From: Nitrosarchaeum sp.
Lineage (GTDB): Archaea; Thermoproteota; Nitrososphaeria; Nitrososphaerales; Nitrosopumilaceae
NCBI RefSeq assembly: GCF_035968265.1
Contig: NZ_JAVYIM010000002.1
Location: 62,001-126,000 of the forward strand
Direction of reading: 5' to 3'
Length of the DNA stretch: 64,000 nt
Each line of letters starts with the position of its first letter. Position 1 is the stretch's first letter. Both the position numbers and the translations under genes were made by a program. The notes under the pieces are model-generated. The model searched no databases, was not told the origin of the DNA, and worked only from the letters and a program-made list of their open reading frames with translations. This document shows, piece by piece, positions 6,522 through 35,537 of this stretch.

Positions 6522-7166
6522 TTAGAAAATATAATTCGAATTTGCACCATCAAAATTAATTACAACCCCTGAAAGATACTTTATTTTATTTTCAATGATT
6601 GCTTTGACAAAGTTTCCAATCTCTTCTGGTTCTCCGAGTCTTTTCATTGGTAGTGACTTTTTGTATTCGTCAATGTTTTCTATTAGTTCTTTGGTTCTAT
6701 CTGTGTTTATTGGGCCTGGTGCAATATTGATGCAACTGATATTTTTTGCAGCATAGTCTTTGCTTAGAATCTTAAAGACTTCACTAAATGCAGCACGATA
6801 TGCTGATGAAATAATCAATTTTTTATTTGGTTCTTTGATTACGCTAGAGCTGATCAAAAATATGTAGCCACCATCATTAATCTTGATGTTTTGTAAAATC
6901 ATACAAAATCCTAAAAATAATTGGTTGTGATATTTTTTCCAGTCATCTTCTGTAATGTTTGCAAATTCTTTAGCTTCAGGTCCACCTGTGTTGAGTACTA
7001 GTATGTCTGTTTGATTATGACTTTGTACAAATTTTTTAACACTGTCCAAATTTGACGTATCTATGTCATTTTTTGATGCTGCAAAAACCTCTATCTTTAT
7101 TGATTTTAGTGATTCTGAGATTGCCTTGCCCATTCCTCTGGAACCACCAAGAACAATTGCTCTCAT
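6522..7166 (-). CDS. divergent short-chain dehydrogenase/reductase
   Basis: A 214-residue SDR with the nucleotide motif GGSRGMG at residues 8-14, NTGGP in place of NNAG, a serine in LISSSV, and PGPINTDR after the active site. The usual Y-x3-K pair is not there: the matching segment reads AYRAAF, with a lysine a few residues later. A family of bacterial SDRs with SxxxRAA in this place is known, so the enzyme may still be a reductase. The substrate is unknown. It converges on the DUF59-PqqD gene with a 2-bp gap. Confidence 0.8.
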   Translation of the reverse strand: MRAIVLGGSRGMGKAISESLKSIKIEVFAASKNDIDTSNLDSVKKFVQSHNQTDILVLNTGGPEAKEFANITEDDWKKYHNQLFLGFCMILQNIKINDGGYIFLISSSVIKEPNKKLIISSAYRAAFSEVFKILSKDYAAKNISCINIAPGPINTDRTKELIENIDEYKKSLPMKRLGEPEEIGNFVKAIIENKIKYLSGVVINFDGANSNYIF

Positions 7167-7309
7167 ACTGTTATCATTGTTATTCTGTAATTAAATTTCT
7201 TTATGAAAAGTAAACTGGATTATGCGGATCATTTCTTATAACTATTTCTTATCTTTGTTACTGATATTTCCTGCCTGCTGGTTAAATGCAATTTTGAGAT
7301 TTCTTAATC

Positions 7310-8557
7310 ATGCAAAAACTCTCAGGACTGTTTCTGTTTGCTGTTCTGATATCAGGCGCTTTTTCATCCAGTCATGCATTTGCACAAATAGGACCTGTAG
7401 CTGAAGATGATTTCTATTCAGTCAATGAGGATTCAATTCTAACTGTAACTCCTGCGGGAGTTTTGTTAAATGACACAAGTATTGACAGTGATATCTTTGC
7501 CATTATACAAACTAGTGTTGGTTTTGGAACACTTACATTGAATCTAAATGGAAGCTTTACCTACCAACCAAATCAAAATTTTGATTCTATTGATTCATTT
7601 ACCTATGTTGCAACTAATGGAACGCATAACAGTAACAATGCAACAGTTACATTATTTGTCAATCCAGTTAATGATTCACCAATAGCTCAAAATGATACTG
7701 CATCCACACCCGAAGACACTCCAGTTATAATCCAAGTACTAAACAATGATTCTGATGTTGACGATATTTCACTCACAGTTAATTCTGTAATACAAGGAGC
7801 TAACGGAATAGTCACTACAAACGGTACCATTATTACTTATACTCCAAACTTAAACTTCAACGGAATAGATTCTTTTACTTATACAATATCTGATGGAATA
7901 CTTGTTGATAACGCAACCGTATCTGTCACAGTAGGCCTAGTTAATGATTCACCAATAGCTCGAAATGATACTGCATCCACACCAGAAGACACTCCAGTAA
8001 CAATTTCAGTACTAAACAACGACTCTGACATTGACGATGATTCACTTATCATTCATTCTATAACGCAAGGTGCTAATGGAACTGTTACAACAAATAGCAC
8101 TACTGTAACTTATACTCCGCATCTAAACTTCACTGGAACCGACTCTTTTACTTATACTGTATCTGATGGAGTAAATGTTAGCAACTCAGCAACAGTTACA
8201 GTAACCGTTACTTCTGTTGATGATGGACATGATGAAAATGATGACGAACATGACGATAAAGTCAACATTTGTCATAAAGACAAGAAAACAATTTCTGTTT
8301 CAAAAAATGCCATTCCTGCACATCTAATGCATGGCGATGTACTTGGTGTCTGTAGTAATGAACACGATGACGATCACGATGATGATCATGACGAAATCAA
8401 TGATAAAAAGGCAATAAAAAATCAGATTAAGGCATTAAAGAAAGACTTCAAAGCAAAAGAAAAAGAACTCAAAGATCAACTAAAAGATTTGAAGAAAGAC
8501 AAAAAATCTAAAGATAAAGATCATGATGAAGATGATGATCATGATGAAGACGATTAA
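7310..8557 (+). CDS. secreted protein with tandem cadherin-like repeats and His/Asp-rich tail
   Basis: 415 residues. A signal peptide (about 1-25, ending SHAFA) precedes three repeats of about 90 residues of the bacterial/archaeal cadherin-like Ig type; repeats two and three share near-identical openings (NDTASTPEDTPV) and LNNDSDxDD calcium-site motifs. Next comes a short segment with two cysteines (VNICHKDKKTISVS and GVC) like a module often found in secreted proteins. It ends in a tail very rich in Asp, His and Lys with a predicted coiled coil. It is probably an extracellular calcium- or metal-binding adhesion or envelope protein. The DNA of repeats two and three is also nearly identical at their starts (about 7675-7735 and 7945-8005). 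Confidence 0.85.
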   Translation: MQKLSGLFLFAVLISGAFSSSHAFAQIGPVAEDDFYSVNEDSILTVTPAGVLLNDTSIDSDIFAIIQTSVGFGTLTLNLNGSFTYQPNQNFDSIDSFTYVATNGTHNSNNATVTLFVNPVNDSPIAQNDTASTPEDTPVIIQVLNNDSDVDDISLTVNSVIQGANGIVTTNGTIITYTPNLNFNGIDSFTYTISDGILVDNATVSVTVGLVNDSPIARNDTASTPEDTPVTISVLNNDSDIDDDSLIIHSITQGANGTVTTNSTTVTYTPHLNFTGTDSFTYTVSDGVNVSNSATVTVTVTSVDDGHDENDDEHDDKVNICHKDKKTISVSKNAIPAHLMHGDVLGVCSNEHDDDHDDDHDEINDKKAIKNQIKALKKDFKAKEKELKDQLKDLKKDKKSKDKDHDEDDDHDEDD

Positions 8558-8943: not shown

Positions 8944-9537
8944 ATGAAATTAATCCAAAAGTTTTCAAATTCATCACTTGCAAAAACTAGCACTCTTGTA
9001 TCTCTAGTTTCAGTGCTTGCAGTTGTCGGTCCTTTTGTAGTCGTATCTGCAGGTTTTTGGGATGCAATATCTCATCTTCAAAAAGAACCTGAATTCTTTT
9101 GGAGCATACAGCATATCGTTGTGTACACCGGAGTCTCAATAACTACAAGTGCATCTATAGTTGGAACTATTCTCTTACTTAGAAACTCTACAAAAAATTC
9201 TCTTAAAAATGGAATTGTTCTAGTAATTACTGGCTCACTAATTCAAATAGTGTCAGGATATGCAGATTCGCTTTCTCATGACCTTTTTGGAATTGATGGT
9301 TTGATATCTTGGTCTCATCAATCATTAGAATTTGGTCTAGTCTTATCTGCACTGGGCGGATTTCTAATACTAAAAAACCTAGAAAAAACAAAACTCAGAG
9401 TACTTGTTCCATTCTCAATTATTTCATTTTTGTTTTTTACAACTTGGTTAGTGTTTAATCTAGTGTTTATCTTTGGCCACACAATACAATGTCTTCCAGT
9501 TTACAAGATATTCTTATCTGGTTGTTCAATCCTGTAA
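8944..9537 (+). CDS. polytopic membrane protein, unknown function
   Basis: A 197-residue protein with about five hydrophobic segments (near residues 17-38, 57-80, 88-108, 125-145 and 155-178). Conserved-looking polar residues sit at the membrane edges: DAISHL, SIQHIVVY, DSLSHDLFG and SWSHQS. This spread of histidines could bind a metal or heme, but no family match is evident. The last 37 bases overlap the end of the convergent gene. The start is the ATG at 8944. Confidence 0.7.
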   Translation: MKLIQKFSNSSLAKTSTLVSLVSVLAVVGPFVVVSAGFWDAISHLQKEPEFFWSIQHIVVYTGVSITTSASIVGTILLLRNSTKNSLKNGIVLVITGSLIQIVSGYADSLSHDLFGIDGLISWSHQSLEFGLVLSALGGFLILKNLEKTKLRVLVPFSIISFLFFTTWLVFNLVFIFGHTIQCLPVYKIFLSGCSIL

Positions 9538-9992
9538 TTTTTTAATTTCATATATGATGAAAAAATAACCATTACTGCACCTACTAGTATAATTATTCCT
9601 GGGGGTATCATGACTTCAGAGCCTGCATCTCCTAACTCAATTTGCAAACTTGTTTGTTCTTTTGAAGGATTTGTAACTTTTACTGTATAACTTCCACTTT
9701 TCTCAAAGTCAAAATATCCAACAGACATTTTTGTCTGAACACTTTCTTCAGATATTATGTTCTGATTACTATCTAAAATTTGAACAAATATCTGCTCGCC
9801 GGTAAATTCTGGCATGAATACTTTGTAATATCCTATACCTTTACCCTCCAAATTCATCTTTAGATCATACGAATTTGATGATTCAAGTACAATTTCTTCA
9901 GATGTTCTGTCTCCTTGTAGAAAAATAAACGATATCCAAATCATTCCAATTACACATAATATCACACCAATTTTGAACAAAGAGAACTTCAA
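9501..9992 (-). CDS. small membrane protein with an extracytoplasmic beta domain
   Basis: About 164 residues. An N-terminal membrane segment (KIGVILCVIGMIWISFIFL) is followed by a beta-sandwich-like part of about 90 residues (FEKSGSYTVKVTNPS is typical of GOLD/P2-like domains) and a second membrane segment (IPPGIIILVGAVMVIFSSY) near the C-terminus. The open frame runs back through tRNA-Arg, so the start must lie below 10036; I choose TTG at 9992. The function is unknown. It overlaps the convergent membrane protein by 37 bp. Confidence 0.65.
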   Translation of the reverse strand: MKFSLFKIGVILCVIGMIWISFIFLQGDRTSEEIVLESSNSYDLKMNLEGKGIGYYKVFMPEFTGEQIFVQILDSNQNIISEESVQTKMSVGYFDFEKSGSYTVKVTNPSKEQTSLQIELGDAGSEVMIPPGIIILVGAVMVIFSSYMKLKNYRIEQPDKNIL

Positions 9993-10035
9993 TTCATCAA
10001 GTATGTGGATTGTTTGTTTAATAAAATAATCTAAG

Positions 10036-10110
10036 AGGGCTCGGAGGGCTTCGATCCCTCGACCTAGCGGTTCGAAGCCGCTCGCACTATCCAGACTGTG
10101 CAACGAGTCC
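10036..10110 (-). tRNA. tRNA-Arg (anticodon UCG)
   Basis: A cloverleaf folds on the minus strand: D-stem GCAC/GTGC, anticodon stem AGCGG/CCGCT around loop CTTCGAA (anticodon TCG, reads CGA), T-stem GAGGG/CCCTC. Two features are odd. The acceptor GGACTCG/CGAGCCC has an A3-C70 mismatch. The T-loop reads ATCGAAG, lacking the usual T54 and T60. The two protein genes on either side have open frames that run through it, so both protein starts were moved out of the tRNA. Confidence 0.85.
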
Positions 10111-10154
10111 AAACAAGTAAGAATTTAACAGGCCTAAATATCTGTCTAGGTACT

Positions 10155-11327
10155 TTGAAAATATCAAAAAAAGTAGCAGGAGTTGAATATGCAATCAGGG
10201 ATATTGTTCTAGCTGCAAGAAAAGTTGAAGAAAAAGGAATGAAAGTTGATTATCTCAACATTGGTGATCCTGTACAATTTGGTTTTCAACCTCCTAATAA
10301 TGTAAAAGAGGCAATGATAAATGCAATAAGAAACGGTGAAAATTTTTATTCCTCATCAGAAGGTCTCAAAGAACTACGAGTAGAAATTGCAAAAAAAGAA
10401 AATGTAAAAGGATTATCAATTTCACATGATGACGTTTTAATCACAAATGGAGTTTCTGAAGGACTCGACATGGTCATATCATCTATTGTTGAAGAAGGCG
10501 ATGAAGTTCTCTTGCCTGGTCCATACTATCCACCATATGCCTCATACGTTAGATTACACGGTGGAATCCCCGTAGAGTTTGCAGTGGATTTGGATAACTC
10601 TACGCCTGATATTGAAGATATTAAATCAAAGATTACTTCAAAAACTATTGCTATATGCTTAATCAGCCCAAATAATCCAACAGGTGTTGTATTTAATGAA
10701 TCATCATTAAAAAAATTAGTAGAGATTGCAAATCAACATAATCTATACATCATATGTGATGAGATTTATGATCAAATAATTTTTGATCAAAAGTTTGTAG
10801 GGATTGGTAAAGTTGCCGGAGATTCACCAGTTATTGTTCTAAATGGATTCTCAAAAGTTCATCTAATGTCTGGATGGAGAATTGGATACATTGCATTTAA
10901 CCAGTCATCAAAACTTGATGCACTACGAGAAAATCTCCCAAAACTTGCACGAGTAAGAATTGCTAGCAATCTTCCAGTACAGCATGCTGCATTAGAGTCG
11001 CTGCGAGGACCACAAGGATACATCACCGAATTTGTATCTGAATTAAAAAAACGCCGAGATCTTGTTGTAAAACGACTCAATGAAATGCCTGGTTTGTCTT
11101 GTCCTAATCCAAAAGGTGCGTTCTATGCTTTTCCAAAAATTGAAGACAATAAATTTGGAACAGATAAAGAATTTGTACAAAAACTTTTAGAAACAAAAGG
11201 TGTCTTGACTGTACATGGTTCTGGATTTGGAGAAAAATATGGTAGTGGACACTTTAGATTAGTGTATTTACCAAGTCTTGAAATTTTAGATTCGGCAATG
11301 AATAAAATCGAAGATTTTGTCAGCTAA
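10155..11327 (+). CDS. class I/II PLP-dependent aminotransferase (alanine transaminase-like)
   Basis: 390 residues of a fold-type I aminotransferase. SPNNPTG near the middle, CDEIYD and the PLP-binding lysine in NGFSKVHLMSGWRIGY are all present. The N-terminal KISKKVAGVEYAIRDI and the LNIGDPVQFGFQPP segment match archaeal alanine-forming or aspartate-type transaminases. I place the start at TTG 10155, because the longer frame from 10098 would run into tRNA-Arg on the other strand. It moves amino groups between glutamate and keto acids; the exact substrate is not determined. Its end overlaps the next gene by 4 bp, tail to tail. Confidence 0.88.
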   Translation: MKISKKVAGVEYAIRDIVLAARKVEEKGMKVDYLNIGDPVQFGFQPPNNVKEAMINAIRNGENFYSSSEGLKELRVEIAKKENVKGLSISHDDVLITNGVSEGLDMVISSIVEEGDEVLLPGPYYPPYASYVRLHGGIPVEFAVDLDNSTPDIEDIKSKITSKTIAICLISPNNPTGVVFNESSLKKLVEIANQHNLYIICDEIYDQIIFDQKFVGIGKVAGDSPVIVLNGFSKVHLMSGWRIGYIAFNQSSKLDALRENLPKLARVRIASNLPVQHAALESLRGPQGYITEFVSELKKRRDLVVKRLNEMPGLSCPNPKGAFYAFPKIEDNKFGTDKEFVQKLLETKGVLTVHGSGFGEKYGSGHFRLVYLPSLEILDSAMNKIEDFVS

Positions 11328-11719
11328 TAACTCCAAATTGAAAACTTTTCTGGAATTATCTCTATAATACAATCTGTATTATCTAATAGTTCTACTGCAG
11401 ATTTGTTTTGTAAACTTTTAAAATATCTTGCAAGTATTTTTTTTGCAATTTTTTTTACTTTGTTATTTTCCAAAATGATATTTGCATTTCCATGTCCCAT
11501 CACACCAAAAATTGGAGAATTCACTCCCACATCTACACAAAATGCAACTTTGTTATTTTTTTTAATATTTTGCGCCTTTTTGGTTTTGGTGTTTGTGCCT
11601 ATGTAGATTTTTTTTGAACTATACAAATACCATACAGGTACTACATGTGGAATTTTACTTCCTATTGTTGTAAGGTGTAAAATTTTTTGGGTTTTTAAAA
11701 ATTCATCTTTGCGGTTCAT
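11324..11719 (-). CDS. pyridoxamine 5'-phosphate oxidase-like FMN-binding protein
   Basis: A 131-residue split-barrel protein. ILHLTTIGSKIPHVVPVWYLY and the later KIYIGTNTKTKKAQNIKKN and VAFCVDV strands match the PNPOx-like flavin/F420-binding family. In archaea such small proteins often use F420 or FMN to reduce small molecules. Its neighbour in the same orientation, the F420:NADP reductase, makes an F420-linked activity reasonable (inference). The start overlaps the end of the upstream two-helix membrane protein by 17 bp, so the three minus-strand genes from 12617 to 11324 probably form an operon. Confidence 0.78.
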   Translation of the reverse strand: MNRKDEFLKTQKILHLTTIGSKIPHVVPVWYLYSSKKIYIGTNTKTKKAQNIKKNNKVAFCVDVGVNSPIFGVMGHGNANIILENNKVKKIAKKILARYFKSLQNKSAVELLDNTDCIIEIIPEKFSIWSY

Positions 11720-11936
11720 GATTTCTAAATCCTAGTAGTATCATAAAAATCCCAAAGCCAATCATGCCTACTGATACTTTTTCATTGGTAAATTCCGAAT
11801 TTAAAATAAAATCTTCTACAAATTCTGGTCCCCAAAGTATTATTTGTCTAACAAGAACTATTCCTGCCATAATTAAAAACAAAGAGCCAACTGCAGTATA
11901 CCAGTTTCTTCCCCTTCGAAAATACTCGTGACTCAT
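11703..11936 (-). CDS. small two-helix membrane protein
   Basis: 77 residues with two membrane segments (YTAVGSLFLIMAGIVLVRQI and VGMIGFGIFMILLGF) joined by an acidic loop, and a basic N-terminus (YFRRGRNW). No family is recognised. It lies 9 bp downstream of the F420:NADP reductase and overlaps the flavin-type protein by 17 bp, which suggests co-expression with both. Confidence 0.6.
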   Translation of the reverse strand: MSHEYFRRGRNWYTAVGSLFLIMAGIVLVRQIILWGPEFVEDFILNSEFTNEKVSVGMIGFGIFMILLGFRNHEPQR

Positions 11937-11945
11937 TGATAATAC

Positions 11946-12617
11946 TTAGATGATTTTGATACCTGGATTTTTTATTTTATTTCGTATCATTGCATTTAGC
12001 AATAATGGTGTTGATATCTCTGCAAGATATGATAATTCTCCTGGTCCCAAATAAATTGGTCTTAACCCTTTGATTTCATTGATCAAACCATTTACCACCT
12101 CAATTGCATCTTTATCATCACCGCATACAAAAATATCATAATCAAGTACCATTGTTGGATTAACAAGCTTCTTTTCTGAAATCACATGAAATGCTGAAAC
12201 CAACTTTGATTTATTTTTCATATGTTTTAAAACAAGTTGATAAGAAAACGGTTTATTCTCTTTAATTGGAATAAACTCAAATCCTACATCTGTTTTTATC
12301 ATTGGAACAATTGGAGATACAACTACACAACTATCTTTAACTTGAGATAAAACTTCTGAGCAAACTGAATCAATGTTTTCATAAGGAATTGATAAAATCA
12401 AAACATCGCTGTCTTTTGCAACTGAGATGTTGTCATTGCCTGTAATTGTTCCATTAATCTGTCCAAATGACTCCTTTGCAATGTTTGTATATTCATTTGC
12501 AGATTCTGATGCCCTCTTGGCATCCCTTGATCCTACAATTACATTGTGATTTTGTGACCATCTGAGAGCAAATCCTTTTCCCATTCCTCCAGTTCCACCA
12601 ATAATTCCAATCTTCAT
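11946..12617 (-). CDS. npdG: F420-dependent NADP reductase
   Basis: 223 residues matching the NpdG/Fno family, which passes hydride between reduced F420 and NADP. The N-terminal Rossmann motif IGIIGGTGGMGKGFALRW is almost diagnostic, followed by VIVGSRDAKRA, where the arginine of SRD usually reads the NADP phosphate. ILSIPYENI and the C-terminal helices around GPGELSYLAEIST complete the fold. It is the first gene of a minus-strand set with a small membrane protein and a flavin-type oxidoreductase. Thaumarchaea make F420, which agrees with this assignment. Confidence 0.88.
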   Translation of the reverse strand: MKIGIIGGTGGMGKGFALRWSQNHNVIVGSRDAKRASESANEYTNIAKESFGQINGTITGNDNISVAKDSDVLILSIPYENIDSVCSEVLSQVKDSCVVVSPIVPMIKTDVGFEFIPIKENKPFSYQLVLKHMKNKSKLVSAFHVISEKKLVNPTMVLDYDIFVCGDDKDAIEVVNGLINEIKGLRPIYLGPGELSYLAEISTPLLLNAMIRNKIKNPGIKII

Positions 12618-25665: not shown

Positions 25666-25740
25666 GGGCTCATGGTCCAGATCGGTTATGACGTCGCCCT
25701 TACACGGCGAAAATCCAGGGTTCAAATCCCTGTGGGCCCA
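25666..25740 (+). tRNA. tRNA-Val (anticodon UAC), integration site
   Basis: Acceptor GGGCTCA/TGGGCCC with an A discriminator, anticodon stem TCGCC/GGCGA around loop CTTACAC (anticodon TAC), T-stem CAGGG/CCCTG with a normal loop TTCAAAT. The tRNA is intact. Its last 12 bases and one following base recur at 32841-32853 as the far end of an integrated element, and the integrase gene lies 9 bp downstream. Confidence 0.96.
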
Positions 25741-25741
25741 T
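25729..25741. repeat. att site, tRNA-proximal end
   Basis: CCTGTGGGCCCAT, the last 12 bases of tRNA-Val plus one. It is identical to 32841-32853, and the identity stops on both sides. Confidence 0.8.
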
Positions 25742-25749
25742 ACTATCTG

Positions 25750-27042
25750 TTAGTTCAAGCCCTGCCTATTTTTGATAACAATTTTACCATTTGGCAATGT
25801 TCCAAGAAACTGCCAACCTTCTATCACTAATTTTTCAAACTCTTCTGGTGTCACAACTCGCTGACTTGTGATCTCTTCGTCTTGTTTTGTGTTGGTCTCA
25901 TAGTCCAAAAACTCTTGACATTTTTTAAAAGACTCGTACATCTCATCAGTCAGTGCTTTTGGGAGTATGCTCTTGTTTGTAGTGTATTTTGCCTCCATGG
26001 AACCAGTGTGTCCCATAAAGAAAACACGAAAGTCATGAGCTATTTTTCCTCTGGATTCTGCAATCAGCAACTGTGTGTCAAAGAACGCTCTTAGCACATA
26101 CGGTCTCCACTTGAATCGTGGTCTCATTGCATCTCGTACGTCTCTTTCAATTATTGCAGTACAAAGAAACTTTTTCTCTTCGTTTTTTCCGCGGAATCTT
26201 TTGTACTTTGAAAAAGGTACTATCACAGGGCTCTCAGGACTGAGAACTTCACCGTCAATCATTCTTTGATTGAGGTATGCAAGTATTTTTTCTGCTCCAG
26301 TTTCTGTAATGAAACTAAAGTACTTGTGTCCTGCCTTTGAGAGTGTTCTTCTTACTACAACTCTTGCAGGTGTTTTTGTAAACCTTGCAATGCCGTGTAT
26401 CACTTCAAGTTCTGGCAGATCCTGTATCATCAGCCCGTCTGTTGCATTGTGATTGCCCAGTACTTGCGGTCGCAGTCCAGCTTTTCCCATCAGTGCCATT
26501 ACTGCACCCGATCTTAGATTTGCTCTGTTGAACAGTTCTGTCAGCTCTGATGCCTCTGGAACTCGCTCATCTACAAGCGATGGAGTTGCATCAACATTTG
26601 CAATTCGTATTCTTCTCTTTACCTCAATGTCAAAGTGATGTAACCATGACTTGACTGATGTAACTATAGTCTTGATGTACTGAGGTGCATATCTTTTTCT
26701 CTCAAGCGTTGTGATGTTATCTTCTAGAAGATCTGCTACTGCTCTTGGGTCTTTGAGTCCTAACTCGATTAACTCCTTTGGAGTTATTTTGTTGTTCTCG
26801 CAGAATTTTCCGAGTTTTCGCAGTCTTACCTCTGCTGTTACGATACTGCTTCTTGCTAGGTTGTCATACCAGCGTCGTATGTCTTGGTTTGAAAGAAGGC
26901 TGTCTTTTTTTGTGATTCTTTTTTGTTTTGCAGTTGTTATTTGGCTTTGTTCTTGCGTCAATTTTTTTCCCACATCAGACTGCACATTTGTGCAGACCTC
27001 ATCAGTAATTGTAAGTGGATTTATCGTATTTACTGTTTTCAT
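25750..27042 (-). CDS. tyrosine recombinase / archaeal integrase
   Basis: 430 residues. An N-terminal core-binding part (about 50-150, RRWYDNLARSSIVTAEVRL) precedes the catalytic domain. Likely catalytic residues are R191 (KAGLRPQVLG), R318 (YVLRAFFDTQL), H345 (FMGHTG) and Y353 (AKYTTNK). This pattern is that of archaeal element integrases, in which the R-box histidine is replaced. It should catalyse insertion and excision at tRNA-Val. The gene is unbroken, which differs from SSV-type integrases that are split on integration. Its ATG overlaps the stop codon of the AbrB-like gene (TAATG), so translation is probably coupled. Confidence 0.93.
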   Translation of the reverse strand: MKTVNTINPLTITDEVCTNVQSDVGKKLTQEQSQITTAKQKRITKKDSLLSNQDIRRWYDNLARSSIVTAEVRLRKLGKFCENNKITPKELIELGLKDPRAVADLLEDNITTLERKRYAPQYIKTIVTSVKSWLHHFDIEVKRRIRIANVDATPSLVDERVPEASELTELFNRANLRSGAVMALMGKAGLRPQVLGNHNATDGLMIQDLPELEVIHGIARFTKTPARVVVRRTLSKAGHKYFSFITETGAEKILAYLNQRMIDGEVLSPESPVIVPFSKYKRFRGKNEEKKFLCTAIIERDVRDAMRPRFKWRPYVLRAFFDTQLLIAESRGKIAHDFRVFFMGHTGSMEAKYTTNKSILPKALTDEMYESFKKCQEFLDYETNTKQDEEITSQRVVTPEEFEKLVIEGWQFLGTLPNGKIVIKNRQGLN

Positions 27043-27257
27043 TATAGATCTATTTCCTCATCTCCGTTCTTTGCACGTACAGGTACAAGTTTTAGACAAT
27101 TATCTGCCATGATTAGTCTCACTGTTGTGATTTTCTCATATCTTGTGCTCTGAATGAATCTCTTTGGAATGGTTACAATATGGCTAAAATTCATTTTTGA
27201 AATCTTTCTCTCACCAAAATCGATCTCTTTCTCTGAATCTTTTGATTCTTTTCTCAT
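27042..27257 (-). CDS. AbrB/SpoVT-like DNA-binding protein
   Basis: 71 residues from ATG 27257. KISKMNFSHIVTIPKRFIQ and VRLIMADNCLKLVPV form the swapped-hairpin AbrB pattern seen in many archaeal regulators and antitoxins. Its stop codon overlaps the integrase start by 1 base (TAATG). It probably controls this operon and perhaps the divergent gene at 27307, which lies 50 bp away. No toxin partner is next to it. Confidence 0.72.
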   Translation of the reverse strand: MRKESKDSEKEIDFGERKISKMNFSHIVTIPKRFIQSTRYEKITTVRLIMADNCLKLVPVRAKNGDEEIDL

Positions 27258-27306
27258 ATTATACAATAATAACAGAAATTAATATCGAAATTTGTATACA
27301 CATTAA

Positions 27307-27708
27307 ATGACGGAATGGCATACTATATCTGCAAAATTTACATCAAGAGAAAAGAAAATTTTAGATATTTTGCGTGATGAATATGGTTTGAGTCATAATC
27401 AATCACTTAGAGGGGGATTGGAATTATTTGTCAGAATACTTGCAATGTGTGAATACTATGTCATGTCAGATAGCAAAATTATGAAAAAAATAAGTCGAGT
27501 TGGTGAAAAATCTATAAAACAAATGGATGCTGATGTTAAAAAAATTCTAGAGAACATACCACGCAAACAACAAGATGAAGAATATGAAAAATTTGCAAAT
27601 GATTCTGCTCGAATACTTTCTAATTTTGATAAAGTTTTTGTTAAAAATAGAAAACGAGGAAGAAAATCATTAAAAACAAAACGTGGAAGACCCAGTACTA
27701 AGCTCTAG
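27307..27708 (+). CDS. putative ribbon-helix-helix protein with AT-hook-like tail
   Basis: 133 residues. The N-terminus has a strand followed by two helices (TISAKFTSREKKILDILRDEYG, then SHNQSLRGGLELFVRIL), which fits a ribbon-helix-helix DNA-binding fold. A charged helical middle follows. The end carries two AT-hook-like motifs, NRKRGRKS and KTKRGRPST. It is divergent from the AbrB-integrase operon with a 50-bp shared promoter region, so it could be the element's second regulator or a chromatin-like protein. The assignment is by pattern only. Confidence 0.62.
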   Translation: MTEWHTISAKFTSREKKILDILRDEYGLSHNQSLRGGLELFVRILAMCEYYVMSDSKIMKKISRVGEKSIKQMDADVKKILENIPRKQQDEEYEKFANDSARILSNFDKVFVKNRKRGRKSLKTKRGRPSTKL

Positions 27709-27729
27709 ATTCAAAAATTATTTTTACAT

Positions 27730-28656
27730 TCATCTTAAGAGAAATATTCTTAATCCTACTCTTATGAATAATGCTATAATTATTGCAGCAATAGTAAAGA
27801 AAACAATATCAGTTAGAGTTACAAAAATGGAATCTAATCCAAATATTAACACCACAAACATAATAGGAATAATTAAGGCTGTAATCACTAAAAGCGGAGT
27901 AATTCTAAAGCGGAATCTAAATCCTAACGTTGTTGTAACAACTGCTATGATTGCTAATACAATAGTTAGTTTGATCACATCTATTGAAGTATCAAAAGTA
28001 AATCTGCCAAATGTATTGAATAATTGTGTCATTACTATGATGGCACAAGTTATTGCTATTGGTAATTGGATTGTCGGAATGTTTAATCTAAAACGTGTTT
28101 TATCAGCTAATGTAACTACATATTCTGGATAAGGAGAAACTCCAAATTTTTTAATACCATAATTTTTTGCTTGTTCATTAACTATTGATGTCATTTGTTT
28201 AATAATTTCATTATTTTTATTTAATTCCTCAGGATTTTCTGGAATGATCAGAGATTGATTAAATTCAGTAAGCTTTCTTATTGCTTCTACTAATTCAGGT
28301 GCTATATCCTTATGTTTTTCTAGAATTTTTTCCATTTCAGAAAAAATTTCTGAATTAAGATAAAGAATTTTTTTAGCCTGATCTAATTTATTATTTTTAA
28401 TATAAGTCTGAATATTCACTAAACCTTGTTGTATCCAATGAATCTTGTTTATTGATTCTTTTACTATGTAATCAAATTGTTTTTGTAACATCTTATTGAT
28501 CAATTTGGTGTTTTTGTGTTGGATGTAAAAGAAAATTATTGCAAACATTGCACCAGCACCTAATTCAATAACGAGCGTATCCCAATTAGTAAAATTACAA
28601 GTTGAGAAATTTTCAAGTGTTATACAGGGAATAAGGTTAGCTTGATTGTCAATCAA
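27730..28656 (-). CDS. membrane protein with large cytoplasmic coiled coil
   Basis: 308 residues. One membrane segment near residue 28-46 (TLVIELGAGAMFAIIFFYI), a helical, partly coiled-coil region of about 130 residues (50-180), and a C-terminal block of three or four membrane helices (about 200-305). No catalytic motif is seen. This build (anchor, coil, helix bundle) occurs in membrane effectors of some defence systems and in element-encoded surface-exclusion proteins, but neither role can be claimed. It faces the regulator at 27307, end to end. Confidence 0.62.
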   Translation of the reverse strand: MIDNQANLIPCITLENFSTCNFTNWDTLVIELGAGAMFAIIFFYIQHKNTKLINKMLQKQFDYIVKESINKIHWIQQGLVNIQTYIKNNKLDQAKKILYLNSEIFSEMEKILEKHKDIAPELVEAIRKLTEFNQSLIIPENPEELNKNNEIIKQMTSIVNEQAKNYGIKKFGVSPYPEYVVTLADKTRFRLNIPTIQLPIAITCAIIVMTQLFNTFGRFTFDTSIDVIKLTIVLAIIAVVTTTLGFRFRFRITPLLVITALIIPIMFVVLIFGLDSIFVTLTDIVFFTIAAIIIALFIRVGLRIFLLR

Positions 28657-28825
28657 TCAACATTGTGTAAAAATACAACTTAATAAGAAATTATTTAAAA
28701 CTGTCTAGAATTTCTTTCATTTCATAGTTTCTACTAATGAAATAACATATTCCTAAAATATTCAAAATAAACGTCATAATCTGTCTTTATTATCTGTCAA
28801 ATCTGATAGCTCAGTGATAGCTCAA

Positions 28826-29110
28826 ATGGAATACGTAATTTCAATAGCAAAAAGATACAATCATGCAAGAACTCACTACAAAGATCCTCGAAATCGTGGG
28901 ATAAAAGGCGCAAAACAAATCCTTGGAATCTATTTTATTAACGAAGATGGAAAACTACGCTTTAGAAAAATATCTAGATTGATGGTTCCATATTATCGTG
29001 CTAGGCTTTGGAAGAGAAGAAAATTTGTCTGTCTTGAATGTGGTTATACATTTGCAGGTCTGGTAAAGAAAGAGACTGATAGTCTTGATTGTCCTAATTG
29101 TGATATCTAA
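28826..29110 (+). CDS. small zinc-ribbon protein
   Basis: 94 residues from ATG 28826 (an in-frame GTG lies at 28814). A basic N-terminal part (AKRYNHARTHYKDPRNRGIKG) leads to a C-terminal zinc ribbon: CLECGYTF and CPNC. The basic residues suggest nucleic acid binding. It is unlike any family I can name and stands alone on the plus strand inside the element. Confidence 0.6.
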   Translation: MEYVISIAKRYNHARTHYKDPRNRGIKGAKQILGIYFINEDGKLRFRKISRLMVPYYRARLWKRRKFVCLECGYTFAGLVKKETDSLDCPNCDI

Positions 29111-29224
29111 ACAATTCCATAATATTGCACGAGATCAATATTCATAGAAAGTAGTTTCTATGTGCTTATTTTGCCATATAAACAGAAATTTCAGTATGAA
29201 ATTAACAAATTCTATAGAATACTG

Positions 29225-29674
29225 TTATTTTTTAGAAAGTTCAGATAATATTTTGTTTAATTTTATTTTTCCAACATCCGTTAATTTCCAAGCTTTTTTT
29301 CCATTTATTGTAGTTTTTGCATCTGTGAGCATTCTATCTTCTTTTACTATTCTATTTTTAAAATTACCCCCAACACTTGGTAACCAGCTTGAATTCAAAA
29401 GAAATCCCTTTTCACCACAACTCTGAATAAAACCTTCTATATTCATAATTGGATTAGAACTGAATGACCATAAAATAGGAATCAATTGACGTTCATCTAA
29501 TTTCATTAAAGATTCGATTAAATTTTCAGGTATGTTTATTGAAATTTCATTATTTGATAATACTTCAGGTTTATTTTTAATTGAAATTTTAGGATTTTTT
29601 ATCGTTTTTTCAAAGTTTAAAGTTCCATCATGTGTTTTTCCATCATCATCTGTAATTGTTATGTGGACTTTCAT
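29225..29674 (-). CDS. hypothetical protein with C-terminal winged-helix-like segment
   Basis: 149 residues. The N-terminal third is beta-rich (KVHITITDDDGKTHDGTLNF). The C-terminal third (NGKKAWKLTDVGKIKLNKIL) resembles the last helix and wing of winged-helix domains that end in LTDxG, as in many archaeal element proteins. It lies 60 bp downstream of the HEPN-like gene in the same direction and may be the last gene of that operon. The function is unknown. Confidence 0.55.
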   Translation of the reverse strand: MKVHITITDDDGKTHDGTLNFEKTIKNPKISIKNKPEVLSNNEISINIPENLIESLMKLDERQLIPILWSFSSNPIMNIEGFIQSCGEKGFLLNSSWLPSVGGNFKNRIVKEDRMLTDAKTTINGKKAWKLTDVGKIKLNKILSELSKK

Positions 29675-29734
29675 TTATTTTTAATTGTAATTGAAGTTTA
29701 AATGCATTATCTAATGATGAAATAAAGATAAATT

Positions 29735-30493
29735 CTATAATATTTTTGTTTTGGAATAAATTAATTTCAGAAGTATAGCAGTGTTCTGAATTTGAGATCT
29801 TGCTATATCGGAGTCTCTAGGAAATTCTGATAATAATGAAGGATGAGCACCTCCTGCTCCTAAATCAGCAATAAGAATTCCTAATGATTTGTATTTATCA
29901 GGATACAATTCTTCTTTTAGTGCCCATTTGTGAAGAGATGTTATTCCCATATACAAAGTCCCAATTTTCTTTTGACATTTAGGACAAATATTATCTCGAA
30001 TTGGTTCAGTTTTTGTAATTTTTTTGTAACAAGAGACTAATGCACCTTCAAAAGATCTTCTACACATAACCAAACATGCAAGGTATGAATTAGTATTGTA
30101 ACAATCTATGGCTTCCAATAGATCTTTTTTATGTTCATTATTAGGAATAATTTCAGATATTTGAAAATCATTATTTTGTTTAATTGTTTCAAATTCATTT
30201 TCAATTTCTGGCCAAAACATTTCTAAATTTTTTAATGTATTTAATTTGACATCTGTATTATTTTCATCAAGTAAAATTGAAATTTGTGAATCAAAATTTT
30301 TCATTATTTTCTTAGAGATATTAGAGTTTTTTATAACTGCTTGAAAATTAAGATTTTTCTTTTTTAATTCAATAAGAGTTTTTTGTAGATTATTTTTATA
30401 ATGACTATGTCTAGGATATTTTTTTAAATTTATTAAAGAACTTTTGACATTTTTTAATGAATATTCTAATTCTGTTAGTGATTCCTTAGTCAT
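29735..30493 (-). CDS. HEPN/DUF4145-like protein with zinc-ribbon insert
   Basis: 252 residues. A helical N-terminal half (1-130) is followed by EAIDCYNTNSYLACLVMCR and RSFEGALVSCYKK, which fit the helix pair of DUF4145/HEPN-type domains found near restriction and other defence genes. A CPKCQKK half-ribbon is inserted after it, then ADLGAGGAHPSLLSEFPRD, also typical of this family's end. The R-x4-6-H motif of active HEPN ribonucleases is not clear, so it may be a sensor or scaffold rather than a nuclease. Its start overlaps the upstream stop (ATGA), so it is the third gene of an operon from 31409. Confidence 0.62.
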   Translation of the reverse strand: MTKESLTELEYSLKNVKSSLINLKKYPRHSHYKNNLQKTLIELKKKNLNFQAVIKNSNISKKIMKNFDSQISILLDENNTDVKLNTLKNLEMFWPEIENEFETIKQNNDFQISEIIPNNEHKKDLLEAIDCYNTNSYLACLVMCRRSFEGALVSCYKKITKTEPIRDNICPKCQKKIGTLYMGITSLHKWALKEELYPDKYKSLGILIADLGAGGAHPSLLSEFPRDSDIARSQIQNTAILLKLIYSKTKIL

Positions 30494-31077
30494 TGATTAT
30501 TTTTTGAGCCAGCTGCTAATTCTTTAATTGTTTCGTATGCTTTTGTACGACCTATACCTGTTGTAAGTTTGTACTCTGTACCTTTTCCAGAACCTCGTGC
30601 TCTAAATAAATCAGGATTTTGTTTAAGATATGTAGATAAATTATATCCATGATCTTGAATTCCTATTTCTCGTAGATGTTGAGTTAATTGTTGAGTTTTC
30701 ATCCAATCAACACCAAAAATTTGTTCATATGTTATCATAATGCATAAAGCTCCTTTAATCATTTTCTGAGAATCATTTTTTTCATTAATAGGTACTACTA
30801 ATTCAAATTTATTTTCTTTAATACTAATAATATCAGTTAATTGTTCTACAGTTATTCCACATGAATTTGCAAATTTATTGATTGTATCACCTGTTTTTAT
30901 AGGATCTTGTTTTTCGTGCTGTGTTATTATTGATTTTGGATTTATAGTAACTTCATGATCTGATAAAATAAGATAATTTAGAATTACCTTAAATGCTTCA
31001 ATTTTATAAGGATCTGGCTGATTACTAACTATTTTTTTGGCAAGTTCAATTTTATCTTTTAATTTATCTTCATTCAT
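30490..31077 (-). CDS. hypothetical protein with C-terminal winged-helix-like domain
   Basis: 195 residues from ATG 31077 (MNEDKLKDK), which overlaps the upstream stop codon as ATGA. The N-terminal 100 residues are mostly helical. The C-terminal part (WMKTQQLTQHLREIGIQDHG through RARGSGKGTEYKLTTGIGRT) looks like a winged-helix domain with a glycine-rich wing. Its own stop overlaps the start of the HEPN-like gene (ATGA). The strict double overlap implies that the three products are made together. The function is unknown. Confidence 0.62.
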   Translation of the reverse strand: MNEDKLKDKIELAKKIVSNQPDPYKIEAFKVILNYLILSDHEVTINPKSIITQHEKQDPIKTGDTINKFANSCGITVEQLTDIISIKENKFELVVPINEKNDSQKMIKGALCIMITYEQIFGVDWMKTQQLTQHLREIGIQDHGYNLSTYLKQNPDLFRARGSGKGTEYKLTTGIGRTKAYETIKELAAGSKNNQ

Positions 31078-31409
31078 TTTCGTACAACATATTTCCATTT
31101 CCCTTCTTCTTTAATTCGTTCTAAAATTCTTTTTTTAACAAATACATTTCTTAATGCACTATCAACACTTTGTGGAGATTTATAATATCCATTTTTTTTC
31201 ATTTCATCATAAACTTCTGCCGATAATTTTGGGTTACTCAAGAAATTATTATCGATTAACATTTGTATTCCTCCACTTCTTCCTGAATAATCATCTTTTC
31301 CATTTTTTATTTTATTAGATTTAATTGGTTTTAGTGTAAGTTTTTCTAACTTAGATATACGATCTTCATGACCTTCAATAATTTTTTTCAATTTTTCAAT
31401 CTCTTCCAT
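31074..31409 (-). CDS. coiled coil plus winged-helix-like protein
   Basis: 111 residues: an N-terminal coiled coil (KLKKIIEGHEDRISKLEKL), a linker, then a helical domain (GGIQMLIDNNFLSNPKLSAE and later GKWKYVVRK) of a type common in archaeal element proteins, which looks like a winged helix. It is the first gene of the operon that also encodes the second winged-helix-like protein and the HEPN-like protein. The coil suggests a dimer that recruits the partners (inference). Confidence 0.62.
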   Translation of the reverse strand: MEEIEKLKKIIEGHEDRISKLEKLTLKPIKSNKIKNGKDDYSGRSGGIQMLIDNNFLSNPKLSAEVYDEMKKNGYYKSPQSVDSALRNVFVKKRILERIKEEGKWKYVVRK

Positions 31410-31486
31410 AAAAATTTGTATATGGAAACTACTTTAAAAATACGTTAATTAATAAATTTCAATAATAAGTTAATGTCAATTTTATG

Positions 31487-31508
31487 AGCGATCAACATTA
31501 TGATCGCT
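31487..31508. repeat. 8-bp inverted repeat hairpin
   Basis: AGCGATCA (31487-31494) and TGATCGCT (31501-31508) around a 6-nt loop. It overlaps the last codons of the broken zinc gene and lies in the 430-bp gap 31410-31839, which otherwise holds that pseudogene and AT-rich sequence. Confidence 0.45.
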
Positions 31509-31669
31509 TAGTTTTTGCTTTATCGTCGCATTTTGCCCTAACTTTGATGTATTCTTCAATGACATCATGAGTCTCTACAAATCATGACTTTAACTTTCAA
31601 TTCTTTATCATGATGTTCTGTAAGATCTGTCCATTCCTTACAGCAAGGACAAGTTCCTAATCCGCCCAT
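31498..31669 (-). pseudogene. frameshifted small zinc protein (HNH-like)
   Basis: An ATG at 31669 opens a frame with CPCCKEWTDLTEHHDKELK and then VKVMICRDS, where it stops at 31565. The next frame on the same strand continues HDVIEEYIKVRAKCDDKAK to a TAA at 31498-31500. If two bases are restored after the GAC codon, the join reads ICRDCHDVIEEYI. That supplies the missing second CxxC and gives a layout like small HNH-type zinc domains (CPxC, then HH, then CxDCHD). The most likely reading is a gene broken by a 2-nt deletion, or a sequencing error. Confidence 0.6.
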
Positions 31670-31839
31670 AGTTATGAGTAGAGGAAGAAACTAATAGGAT
31701 TTTCTTAATTTATGATTTTTATTCTTTATGTATGAAAGATGTCAAATTTGAGCCTAAATTATCAATTCACAATTAATTCAAGATACAGTAATGATGATGA
31801 GATCATGTTTATATTGAAAATAAGATGTTATGATTTTCA

Positions 31840-32685
31840 TTGAGTCAAGTAGATCCTAGAAGATCAACCGTAGCATTACGCCTATTACTCAGAACAATAA
31901 GAATGAGAAGAGAAGTCACAGTAAGTAAACAAATTTCTGAACGAATGAAAGAAGAGATACGTGAAATAATTGATTTATTGACGACTGACCCAATATTACG
32001 AGGTTATCAAACCATATCAGATGTAAAATATTTCAGATATTTAACATCCAAAAAAATATCATCTCGTAGTTCTTTGTTGATGATGATTGCGAATATTGAA
32101 AGTAGATTAAGAGAAATTAGAAGTAGAGAGATGAATATGCGAGGACAACAAATTCCATATACGATTCCAAACATGCTTGAATCACAAATACAGAATGAAA
32201 CACAGATTAGAGAGTCAAAAATACAAGAAGATATTTCAGATGTAGAACTCGAAGAAATTACACTGGATTCGTTAAAAGGAAAAAAGGTTTTGTTTGGAAT
32301 AATGCCATTTGATAGTGAGTTTATTGATGTCTGGGATGGAGCAATTAAACGAGCTGCAAAAAATACTGGATTTTATCCATTAAGAATAGACATGATTACA
32401 AAATCAAGTGATATTACAGATGACATAATTGAAGTCATAAGACAGTCTAAAATTGTAGTTATAGATGTCACAAAAAATAATCCTAATGTGATGTTTGAAT
32501 TTGGTTATGCATTAGCATTAAAAAAAACACCCGTGGTCATTAGTCAATCTACAGATTACCTTTCTTTTGATATTAAAAATATGAGAACAATAGTTTATCA
32601 GAATTCATGGAAAGGAATTGAAAAACTAAATGGAGAATTACAGAAATTTATCAAAAGTTCCGATAAGAAAACATCCAAAAAATGA
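31840..32685 (+). CDS. TIR-like / deoxyribosyltransferase-like effector candidate
   Basis: 281 residues from TTG 31840. The N-terminal 130 residues are basic and helical with no known domain. Residues 148-265 form an alpha/beta domain of the TIR-like (CAP12/DUF1863-like) and nucleoside deoxyribosyltransferase superfamily: LFGIMPFDSEF at 151-161, SKIVVIDVTKNNPNVMFEFG at 203-222 with candidate catalytic E220, then PVVISQS. Proteins of this group cleave NAD or nucleotide N-glycosidic bonds, and many act in antiviral defence (family knowledge). It is the last cargo gene before the distal att repeat. No cyclase or SAVED partner is present. Confidence 0.7.
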   Translation: MSQVDPRRSTVALRLLLRTIRMRREVTVSKQISERMKEEIREIIDLLTTDPILRGYQTISDVKYFRYLTSKKISSRSSLLMMIANIESRLREIRSREMNMRGQQIPYTIPNMLESQIQNETQIRESKIQEDISDVELEEITLDSLKGKKVLFGIMPFDSEFIDVWDGAIKRAAKNTGFYPLRIDMITKSSDITDDIIEVIRQSKIVVIDVTKNNPNVMFEFGYALALKKTPVVISQSTDYLSFDIKNMRTIVYQNSWKGIEKLNGELQKFIKSSDKKTSKK

Positions 32686-32992
32686 ATCTAAATCAATACT
32701 GAAACCTCTAAATCTTAATTTAGTATCTTAAGAGAAAAAAATAGAAAAGGAGTTTGAGCTACTCCGATAAGCTTACTGCATTTTTTGTCAACTTTTACTC
32801 ACAAAATTCCTTGGACTCGTACTAACTGATAGTGAGAGAACCTGTGGGCCCATTTTTGTTCCTAAAATAGATGGGAAAGTCACTATGATGCAAAAATTAA
32901 ATAATTTCAGAAGAAAAAGTATACTATCATTAACCAATTAAATCATAATTTTACATTGATTGTTTCATCAATGAATATGAACATAATACCAT
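32686..32992. other. junction region of the integrative element
   Basis: No gene is seen in this 307-bp gap. It holds a 5-bp hairpin (GGAGT 32749-32753, ACTCC 32761-32765) with a T-rich stretch shortly after, which may end transcription of the TIR-like gene, and the distal att repeat at 32841-32853. Confidence 0.5.
32841..32853. repeat. att site, distal end
   Basis: CCTGTGGGCCCAT, an exact copy of the 3' end of tRNA-Val. No tRNA can be folded around it, so it is the remnant left by integration. Confidence 0.78.
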
Positions 32993-34486
32993 ATGCAATT
33001 TTCACACAGTCTAATCTTGGGATTTCTTATAATTACCGCAATATCGGGAGTCATTGGAATAATTTCACTATATCAGTTTGTTACAATTGTAGATTCACTC
33101 AAAACTGCAGTACCAGAATCAATTGAGGACTTTAAAACAAAAGCATCGATTCTGGAAAGTGATAGATTGATAATATATTATGATGAAGTTTTAACACAAT
33201 CCGCAAGAAATTATGCTTTTACTCATGATGAAAAATGGAAATTAAGATATTTTCAAATTGAGCCCGCGTTAGACAAATTGATCAAAGAGCCATATAGTAA
33301 TGCAAATAACAGCATTTTTTTGGAATTAAATAAAATAAACGTTCAGCTTGTCAACATGGAAAAAGAGGCAATAAAGTTAACAGATGACGGAGAATATGAA
33401 CAAGCCATATCAATTTTGGAAAGCGATGAATACACAGAGCTAAAATCACTATACACGGATTCGTTGAAGCTTCACGCAGAAAATAACAATTTAGAATATG
33501 ATGATGGTATCAAATCACTAGAAAATACATCATTGTTACTTTCTTCAAACATAGATCGAGTGACAAAAGAAGGTACGATAGTCTTGGAGATTATTTTTCC
33601 AATTTTGGTGTCTCTGTCTATTTTTCTAGGAATATTTTTTTCAAAAAGATTAGCAACACCAATCAACGATTTAAAAAAATCAGTAAAACAGATTGCCGCA
33701 GGGAATTTTGATGTAAACATTGTAGTACATGGACCAGATGAGATCAAGGAATTGATACATGATTTTAAGACAATGGTGATAGAGCTGAATAAAATCGATA
33801 TCATGAAAAATGATTTTTCAGCCATGATCACGCATGAGTTAAAAACACCACTAGTTCCAATAATTGGATATGTAGATTTACTTTTATCAAAACACTTTGG
33901 GGACTTGAATCAAAATCAAATAGAACGACTACTGAGGATAAAGAATAGCTGCATAAAGATGCAAAATATAGTCACTGACATTCTTGACATTAATGGAATA
34001 GGGACGAATCAATTGAAATTCAACATGGAAATAAATGACATATCATTAATCGTCAAGGATGGTATAGAGCAATTGAAAGATGAATTCAGTAAGAAGAAAA
34101 TTACAATTGCAGAGTCGCTGGAAAAAAATCTGATGTGTAATTGTGATAAAGGTAGAATAAACCAAGTCATAATCAACGTATTAAGCAATGCAATTGACTT
34201 TTGTCCAAAGCAAGAAGGTAGAATTGAGATAATAACAAACAGGATTAGAAACAACATTCACATTATTATCAAAGATAATGGAATAGGTATTTCAAAAGAA
34301 AACATAAACAAAATATTTGTAAAGTATTACCAAGTAGACACCACATCAATTAGGGAGCATGGGGGAACAGGCATAGGTTTGTCATTGTCTAAGATTATCG
34401 TAGAAAAGCATAATGGCAAAATTTGGGCAGAATCAAATGGAAAAGACAAAGGTTCAGAAATTCACATTCAGATACCAACTATATGA
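32993..34486 (+). CDS. sensor histidine kinase with HAMP domain
   Basis: 497 residues. Two membrane helices (about 8-30 and 196-216) flank a helical extracytoplasmic sensor of about 165 residues. A HAMP domain follows (residues 217-268), then HisKA with H281 in MITHELKTPLVP, and an ATPase domain with NVLSNAIDFC, DNGIGIS and GTGIGLSLSK. All catalytic boxes look intact. No response regulator is next to it. It lies just outside the integrated element, 140 bp after the distal att site. Confidence 0.92.
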   Translation: MQFSHSLILGFLIITAISGVIGIISLYQFVTIVDSLKTAVPESIEDFKTKASILESDRLIIYYDEVLTQSARNYAFTHDEKWKLRYFQIEPALDKLIKEPYSNANNSIFLELNKINVQLVNMEKEAIKLTDDGEYEQAISILESDEYTELKSLYTDSLKLHAENNNLEYDDGIKSLENTSLLLSSNIDRVTKEGTIVLEIIFPILVSLSIFLGIFFSKRLATPINDLKKSVKQIAAGNFDVNIVVHGPDEIKELIHDFKTMVIELNKIDIMKNDFSAMITHELKTPLVPIIGYVDLLLSKHFGDLNQNQIERLLRIKNSCIKMQNIVTDILDINGIGTNQLKFNMEINDISLIVKDGIEQLKDEFSKKKITIAESLEKNLMCNCDKGRINQVIINVLSNAIDFCPKQEGRIEIITNRIRNNIHIIIKDNGIGISKENINKIFVKYYQVDTTSIREHGGTGIGLSLSKIIVEKHNGKIWAESNGKDKGSEIHIQIPTI

Positions 34487-34595
34487 GAATTTAATCTGCG
34501 TCCCATTTATTGTCAATAATGGTGGTAGAGTCCAAAATGACTATGCATTTGTTATATGCGTTGCCAGTGGAACTTGTGTTAAAACTGCAATGGGA

Positions 34596-34712
34596 TTATT
34601 GACTTTCAATCTTGAAATGTTCACAACTGTCAAAATTATAAAAACTAACATATCTACTCATGTAATGTTTGATGCATCCATTTTCATCCCCCGAAATGCT
34701 AGACGAGTCCAT
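34596..34712 (-). CDS. possible small protein (38 aa)
   Basis: An ATG at 34712 opens a 38-residue frame with NGCIKHYMSRYVSFY and DSCEHFK, ending at TAA 34596-34598. The paired Cys/His residues suggest a metal site, and the frame looks more protein-like than the overlapping plus-strand frame. The promoter spacing is not ideal (a TTAAAAT box centred about 18 nt upstream). It occupies part of the 313-bp gap 34487-34799, in which nothing else is seen apart from the promoter of the next gene. Confidence 0.35.
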   Translation of the reverse strand: MDSSSISGDENGCIKHYMSRYVSFYNFDSCEHFKIESQ

Positions 34713-34775
34713 GTCAACCCATTTAGATTTTAACCTTGAAATGATTCAATATCATAATTAAAAATCACATGTTTG

Positions 34776-34782
34776 TTTATAT
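34776..34782 (+). promoter_or_regulatory. TATA-like box, near-leaderless start
   Basis: TTTATAT lies 18-24 nt before the ATG at 34800. This supports that ATG as the start, rather than the earlier in-frame ATG at 34773, which would place the box inside the gene. Confidence 0.45.
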
Positions 34783-34799
34783 GTCGAATTTTTCCAATA

Positions 34800-35495
34800 A
34801 TGTCATTGGTTAATCAATACGTTTGGATAGGAATTGTAGTTGCAGCGTTTTTTGTAGGGGTTGGTGCTAGTTATGCTCATTTTGCAAATACATATGATCC
34901 AATGTCTATGAAATTTCAAAATCAAGATTTGTTTAATCAAATGATGTCTAATAATCCTAAAATGTCTCAACAATGGATGGATTCAGGCATGATGAATCAA
35001 CAACAAATTATGCAAGATCCAAAACAAATGATGGAATGGATGGTAAACGATCCAAAACATATTGAACAAATGTCAACTATCATGAAAGAAGATCATGTAT
35101 TTATGTCAAAAATGATGTCTGTCATGATGAATGATCCTGATTTGAGGTTACAGCTGATGGGTCATATGTCTGAAAATTCAGAATCATTCAAAGAAATGAT
35201 GAATATGATGGGTTATGCTAACATAACAGATCCCAAAGATTATGGAATGATGATGGGTAATATGACAGGAATACATGATAATATGATGTTGGAGTTGATG
35301 AAAGACCCTGAAACAAGAGAAAAAATGATTGAGTTAATGAAAGAACACATTTCAGAAATGAATGACTTATTTTCTTCTAATTTACCATATGATGAGTTTA
35401 ATATGAAAATGGATGATTTAATGCAAGAACACATGCAATCAATGCAAGAGTTAATTCCTAATCATCAAATGACAGGAACTATGCATCACCCTTAA
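34800..35495 (+). CDS. membrane-anchored methionine-rich protein, probable copper binder
   Basis: 231 residues from ATG 34800. An N-terminal membrane anchor (YVWIGIVVAAFFVGVGASYA) places the rest outside the cell. The mature part is helical and very rich in Met with scattered His: MMSNNPKMSQQWM, DSGMMNQQQIMQ, MGYANITD, DYGMMMGNMTG and a final MTGTMHHP. A Met-rich exported domain commonly binds Cu(I). It resembles no enzyme. It precedes the convergent TRASH-domain regulator, and a joint copper role fits (inference). Confidence 0.75.
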   Translation: MSLVNQYVWIGIVVAAFFVGVGASYAHFANTYDPMSMKFQNQDLFNQMMSNNPKMSQQWMDSGMMNQQQIMQDPKQMMEWMVNDPKHIEQMSTIMKEDHVFMSKMMSVMMNDPDLRLQLMGHMSENSESFKEMMNMMGYANITDPKDYGMMMGNMTGIHDNMMLELMKDPETREKMIELMKEHISEMNDLFSSNLPYDEFNMKMDDLMQEHMQSMQELIPNHQMTGTMHHP

Positions 35496-35537
35496 AAATT
35501 TAGTTTCAAATTTTGTTAATTTATTTTGGTATTGATT

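Follow-up and report, generated by a model that had tools for sequence, protein, structure and literature searches.

What could a set of small, overlapping genes for winged-helix-like proteins and a HEPN-like protein do on a mobile element of an ammonia-oxidizing archaeon, a group in which little is known about defence? We analysed such a locus in a 64,000-nt stretch of Nitrosarchaeum DNA (in the following called the window) and compared it with other genomes.

Gene arrangement and carrier element

The three reading frames described in an earlier note between positions 29735 and 31409 are present on the minus strand. Gene A (31074-31409), the variable first gene of the operon, encodes a protein of 111 amino acids (aa) with a coiled-coil N-terminus and a winged-helix-like domain. 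It is followed by gene B (30490-31077, minus strand; 195 aa), encoding a helical N-domain, a linker, a middle domain and a C-terminal winged helix, and by gene C (29735-30493, minus strand; 252 aa), encoding a helical N-terminal region and a HEPN fold with a CxxC insertion. The tight overlap of A, B and C was described correctly, but the operon extends beyond the range first noted: a fourth gene, D (29225-29674; 149 aa), follows C on the same strand after a gap of 60 bp and encodes a wHTH protein with the motif SWLPSxGGNF.

A mechanical list of reading frames placed the start of B at 31098 (202 aa). We adopted the start at 31077 because all B homologues begin at the methionine encoded there. 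With this start, both joints are 4-base ATGA overlaps as claimed before (AAATGAATG for A/B, CAATGACT for B/C). The reading frame is maintained across homologues with 27–48% identity, and codon position 2 was the best conserved one in every comparison of A, B, C and D (for C versus L033, conservation at the three codon positions was 0.58/0.74/0.48). We therefore regard the genes as real, all four of them evolving as proteins according to these alignments. Upstream of A lies a perfect inverted repeat, AGCGATCA-N6-TGATCGCT (31487-31508), with one site in the window compared to 0.01 expected for the pattern, which is a candidate operator.

The operon is carried by an integrative element of 7.1 kb (25729-32853) located at a tRNA-Val gene. 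The left attachment site attL (CCTGTGGGCCCAT, 25729-25741, plus strand) comprises 13 bp at the 3′ end of this tRNA gene, and the same 13-bp repeat forms attR at the right end (32841-32853, plus strand). A tyrosine-recombinase-like integrase is encoded next to attL on the minus strand (25750-27042). Its R..GH..Y residues were recognized by alignment alone, with no Pfam match, and we based its identity on this motif and on a sister element, whose integrase is 90% identical. The sister element, found in G007 (L094, reverse complement of 1332-8455), has the integrase, the left-end genes and the right end in common with the window element, the right end being 93% identical over 119 bp. Its middle contains genes for exported or membrane proteins where the window has A-D and a TIR-like gene, a swap of cargo.

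The two closest relatives (G006 and G014; a neighbouring protein is 92–94% identical) do not have the element: window bases 25742 to ~35524 are almost wholly missing there. The segment adjoining the element (32854-35523), with a histidine kinase gene (32993-34486) and a gene for a Met-rich exported protein, is likewise nearly absent from both and perhaps represents a second insertion, or else a deletion in the relatives. The integrase, the tRNA target, the flanking att repeat and the empty site in relatives characterize a cryptic integrated element. Elements of this kind in thaumarchaea often target tRNA genes and mostly have att repeats of <26 bp (Krupovic 2019, PMC6563490). The window element resembles them in its tRNA-side integrase, short att (13 bp), size of <20 kb and membership in a class with varied cargo (PMC6563490). 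It differs in the cargo A-D itself: a limited literature search yielded no description of this operon, either as cargo of such elements or elsewhere.

The operon is neighboured by a TIR-like or nucleoside-deoxyribosyltransferase-like gene (31840-32685, plus strand), whose product matched a TIR effector model (3e-10) and, under the cut-off, the nucleoside-deoxyribosyltransferase fold family. A link between this gene and the operon had been suggested, and both are indeed cargo of the same element. The gene is not a conserved partner, however. Of 150 relatives, 5 have a homologue, and in the loci examined no such homologue adjoins B or C. We rejected the gene as a fifth component on grounds of synteny, as it is absent from both other operon loci.

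Conservation of the operon and the company of B

Searching 400 genomes of the class with the single C sequence identified one clear relative, in G272 (47% identity, e-value 1.5e-65). Scanning 84,980 species with a pattern returned the same G272 contig (L063) and a second locus in Ca. Nitrosotalea nzgw10 (L064, 38%); the known copies of C are three in total, from few genomes. Weak matches to C in other genomes (e-values 0.001–0.1) were discarded as noise, being short, interrupted by stops or due to coiled coils. Plasmids and phages yielded no copy of C, and scans of IMG/VR using the alignments A1, A3 and A4 as well as B and C gave no relatives.

At the G272 locus, which adjoins HsdS/HsdM and lacks A, B is followed after 40 bp by C and then by D. 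The Nitrosotalea locus begins with a wHTH gene, followed by B, by C overlapping the end of B, and by D 50 bp downstream; its first gene encodes an unrelated TrmB/MarR-type wHTH protein in place of A. The homology of C in this MAG starts from an ATA, with the first ATG 60 bases further. The D protein of the window is 48% identical to that of Nitrosotalea over 110 aa and shows a weak likeness to that of G272 (e-value 3e-4 over 32 aa, with SW..GGNFKNR in common). G238 has one additional D homologue, but its contig ends there, leaving the upstream genes out of view.

Because B-C-D recurs in the same order in these two other Nitrososphaeria genomes, with A swapped or absent, the sequence comparison indicates B-C-D to be the conserved core and A to be exchangeable. 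The earlier expectation of a conserved three-gene order thus applies to B-C(-D), whereas A is replaced in one genome and absent from the other. Similarly, the objection that the genes might occur separately fails for the core, but it does describe A, a member of a large wHTH family of thaumarchaea that mostly occurs without the operon.

In Nitrosotalea, the operon and a Cdc6/Orc1-like gene fill a 4.0-kb insert between a corrinoid-binding-protein-like gene and prs, two core genes that are 66 bp apart in G071. This insert and the window element differ, so the same module moves in more than one carrier. The inter-domain linker of the Nitrosotalea B (L064 7525-7620) contains an in-frame 15-base tandem repeat, (VGTQP)n.

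The model of B consists of a 45-aa helical N-domain, a linker, a small helix/hairpin middle domain and the C-terminal winged helix. The latter matched many wHTH structures (prob 0.97–1.00, with TMt ~0.68 at prob 1.00), and B is accordingly modelled with a winged-helix fold; among solved structures, it has no convincing sequence relative. We rejected a LysM match to B (e-value 0.0023, under the cut-off), as the model shows no more there than a short helix and hairpin of a generic kind.

A profile search found B-type proteins in few of 400 genomes. The matches in G074 and G228 covered the N-domain region alone, as in a host protein discussed below. Using B as the only query, we identified three further loci, all with an adjacent defence-type effector. 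In G034 (L020), B lies beside a gene encoding an A-type wHTH-HEPN protein. On contig 46 of G272 (L072), a run of wHTH genes is associated with B, A and a HEPN of the type found in L020, and adjoins an AbiV HEPN; the A homologue at this locus (L072:10307-10630; 46% identity) overlaps the B homologue. The locus in G008 (L019) has, in this order on one strand, genes for a TIR, a small protein and the C-terminal half of B. The HEPNs of L020 and L072 matched the PADLOC model PD-Lambda-3_B (2e-19 and 5e-18) as well as Aga_HEPN and have an intact RNPRxH (RNPRAH/RNPRGH), and the TIR of L019, in the same operon as the B half, matched ThsB (5e-8). Hypoth_Ymh HEPNs were found in just 4 of 200 genomes, a rarity that makes a chance adjacency to B very unlikely. 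Other loci with such HEPNs (in G064, G200 and G208) have no B partner; hence, association with B is not a general feature of this HEPN family.

Domain fusions connect several of these parts. The A-type wHTH is fused to the Hypoth_Ymh HEPN in L020 and L072 (e-values 2e-7 and 7.6e-6). A conserved, chromosomal but uncharacterized thaumarchaeal protein, encoded beside ctaB and asd (L021:12694-13152, L022:14906-15382), combines the N-domain of B (49% identity over 47 aa, P 1.8e-12) with a D-type wHTH (P 2.2e-7 to the C-domain of D). The C-domain of D is probably wHTH-like itself, because it is related to this host fusion protein and has a wing-like ending, Y/W..LTD.G. These B-N/D and A/HEPN fusions suggest a physical association of the parts.

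Fold and motifs of C in relation to known systems

The AlphaFold model of C, built with three sequences, is all-helical (pLDDT 79.9), with N-terminal helices of ~105–110 residues preceding a HEPN domain. In a Foldseek search, C matched 2hsb (prob 1.00, TMt 0.74), 1ufb and 1wol (TMt 0.68 each), 1o3u (0.63) and sacsin (0.62), with 3o10 among the HEPN matches. These matches had prob values of 0.96–1.00 and weak e-values of ~0.5–1.6, and we based the assignment on prob, TM and a profile match to a canonical archaeal DUF4145 protein (e-value 9e-7) rather than on the Foldseek e-values. In the model, C has a HEPN fold, consistent with what had been proposed for the third protein. Among solved structures, there was no convincing sequence relative.

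The label DUF4145 proved too specific. C scored 15.4 bits against PF13643, below the curated cut-off of 23.1, and the model matched one of the three C homologues. The R..GN...H motif is degenerate: residues 209–217 (29843-29869, minus strand) read A-D-L-G-A-G-G-A-H. Where a canonical DUF4145 protein has VRIFGNYGAHP, the C copies have IADLGAGGAHP, TADLGAGGAHP and VSDIGAGGAHP; Arg is replaced by A/S and Asn by A, and the His (H217) is kept in all three. An Rx4-6H catalytic motif was not found, as an R is absent from the 4–7 residues before the H in the three homologues. Residues R145, R146, R226 and H217 are invariant. C further resembles DUF4145 in the fold, a conserved double Arg in the HEPN helix (..CRRS..E) and the terminal GAHP, but it has an insertion of ~25 aa with a CxxC, a helical N-terminus of 110 aa and wHTH operon partners. 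The claimed zinc half-ribbon could be located in this insertion as CPKC (residues 170–173; 29975-29986, minus strand), a position occupied by CxxC in all three homologues. In DUF4145, the HEPN motif is ~80% conserved, but certain HEPN families retain the H without the R, and motif-less HEPNs are possibly RNA binders, or toxic still (Anantharaman 2013, PMC3710099).

Among the four proteins, C alone gave a PADLOC hit, a partial and weak one to TIR-TM (e-value 0.0015) that spans residues 47–129 and lies outside the HEPN part; A, B and D had no defence match. The operon is thus not a member of the known anti-phage systems covered by PADLOC, whereas the partners of B homologues do match. In the PD-Lambda-3_B/Aga_HEPN type (Hypoth_Ymh, PF09509), the HEPN effector likewise adjoins a B-type protein and is fused to an A-type wHTH (L020, L072), but it belongs to another HEPN family with the RNPRxH intact, and C does not match its models. 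As in MNT-HEPN (HepT/MntA) systems, C is a HEPN protein whose gene adjoins that of a small partner and is carried by mobile DNA, and MntA-HepT structures appeared in the fold search with C (prob 0.63–0.75). The operon differs from them in its four genes and its wHTH partners, and none of A, B and D matched a nucleotidyltransferase. HEPN effectors accompanied by helper proteins are already known; the gene set with the putative B adaptor is a new variant.

Possible functions of the module

We consider A-B-C-D best explained as a nucleic-acid-sensing conflict or defence module borne by mobile genetic elements, with the HEPN protein as a non-canonical effector, and assign this reading a probability of roughly 0.45. 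The four proteins would form one complex. Its winged-helix subunits, of which B and D are constant and A can be exchanged, would recognize nucleic acid (DNA of foreign origin or of an element being the likeliest target) and would restrain C until sensing. C would then act on RNA, either by cleaving it with a substitute for the lost Arg (candidates are R145, R146, R226 and H217) or by binding it non-catalytically and blocking translation. We favour this explanation because the order B-C-D is kept at three unrelated sites, because the model gives C a HEPN fold, and because the genes are mobile, as seen from the element missing in the closest relatives, the Nitrosotalea insert and the sister element with other cargo. 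It is further favoured by the HEPN and TIR defence effectors next to B homologues, by the fusions linking the parts, and by the neighbouring HsdS/HsdM in G272 and AbiV HEPN in L072. Against it stand the HEPN Arg, which is lost in all three copies of C, the PADLOC results for the four proteins, and the small number of C copies together with the weakly similar D of G272.

Plain transcription regulation would account for the wHTH proteins equally well. A, B and D might be transcription regulators that, together with C as an inactive HEPN acting as a scaffold or binding RNA, form a regulatory complex controlling the expression of the element or the operon. C would then act as proposed for MtlR-like inactive HEPNs, regarded as RNA-binding regulators (Anantharaman 2013, PMC3710099). 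The presence of three wHTH proteins, the lost Arg and the inverted repeat upstream of A fit this explanation, as does the host protein joining B-N and D-C, which is chromosomal and of a housekeeping type. We find it less likely, since the Nitrosotalea module comes without an integrase or element backbone and is therefore independent of any single element, and since B homologues accompany intact HEPN and TIR effectors.

A toxin-antitoxin (addiction) operon, with C as a toxin held by the DNA-binding antitoxins B, A and D, is unlikely. Small overlapping genes on a mobile element, a HEPN toxin fold, wHTH partners and an upstream inverted repeat would agree with it, and HEPN toxins can remain toxic without the motif (PMC3710099). 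However, four genes are many for such a system, an MNT antitoxin is lacking, C is without the canonical catalytic Arg, and the antitoxin-toxin order is matched in part, as D comes after C. The least likely reading is an accessory module for replication or segregation, suggested by the Cdc6-like gene inside the Nitrosotalea insert and the resemblance of the modelled B winged helix to those of Orc2, because Cdc6 is absent from both other loci, wHTH-Orc similarity is generic, and the Nitrosotalea gene, the one Cdc6 found in a partial MAG of 0.7 Mb, could be a core gene.

Returning to the defence module, we tentatively propose that B-type proteins might be modular archaeal sensors or adaptors with interchangeable effectors, namely the non-canonical HEPN C, a Hypoth_Ymh HEPN with intact motif, or a TIR. 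If true, this would be a thaumarchaeal immune architecture so far undescribed, and the shared B adaptor would provide a searchable handle on a whole class of archaeal systems. The domain sharing between B and the host protein would then suggest that B arose from a host factor or monitors one. A HEPN family with the His kept and the Arg consistently lost is also a direct test case for alternative or non-catalytic HEPN action.

Further genes were noticed around the B homologues. In L072, five small wHTH-type genes in one operon (a paralogue of the B N-domain, B and three of A-type; 9226-12090) face the wHTH-HEPN gene, on an integrase-bearing stretch with the AbiV HEPN. The candidate TIR operon of G008 (L019 9701-11018) adjoins tRNA-Val(gac) and DNA methylase genes. 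The B/HEPN pair of G034 is flanked by two uncharacterized genes (L020 7418-8287 and 9991-10269) that may belong to the module.
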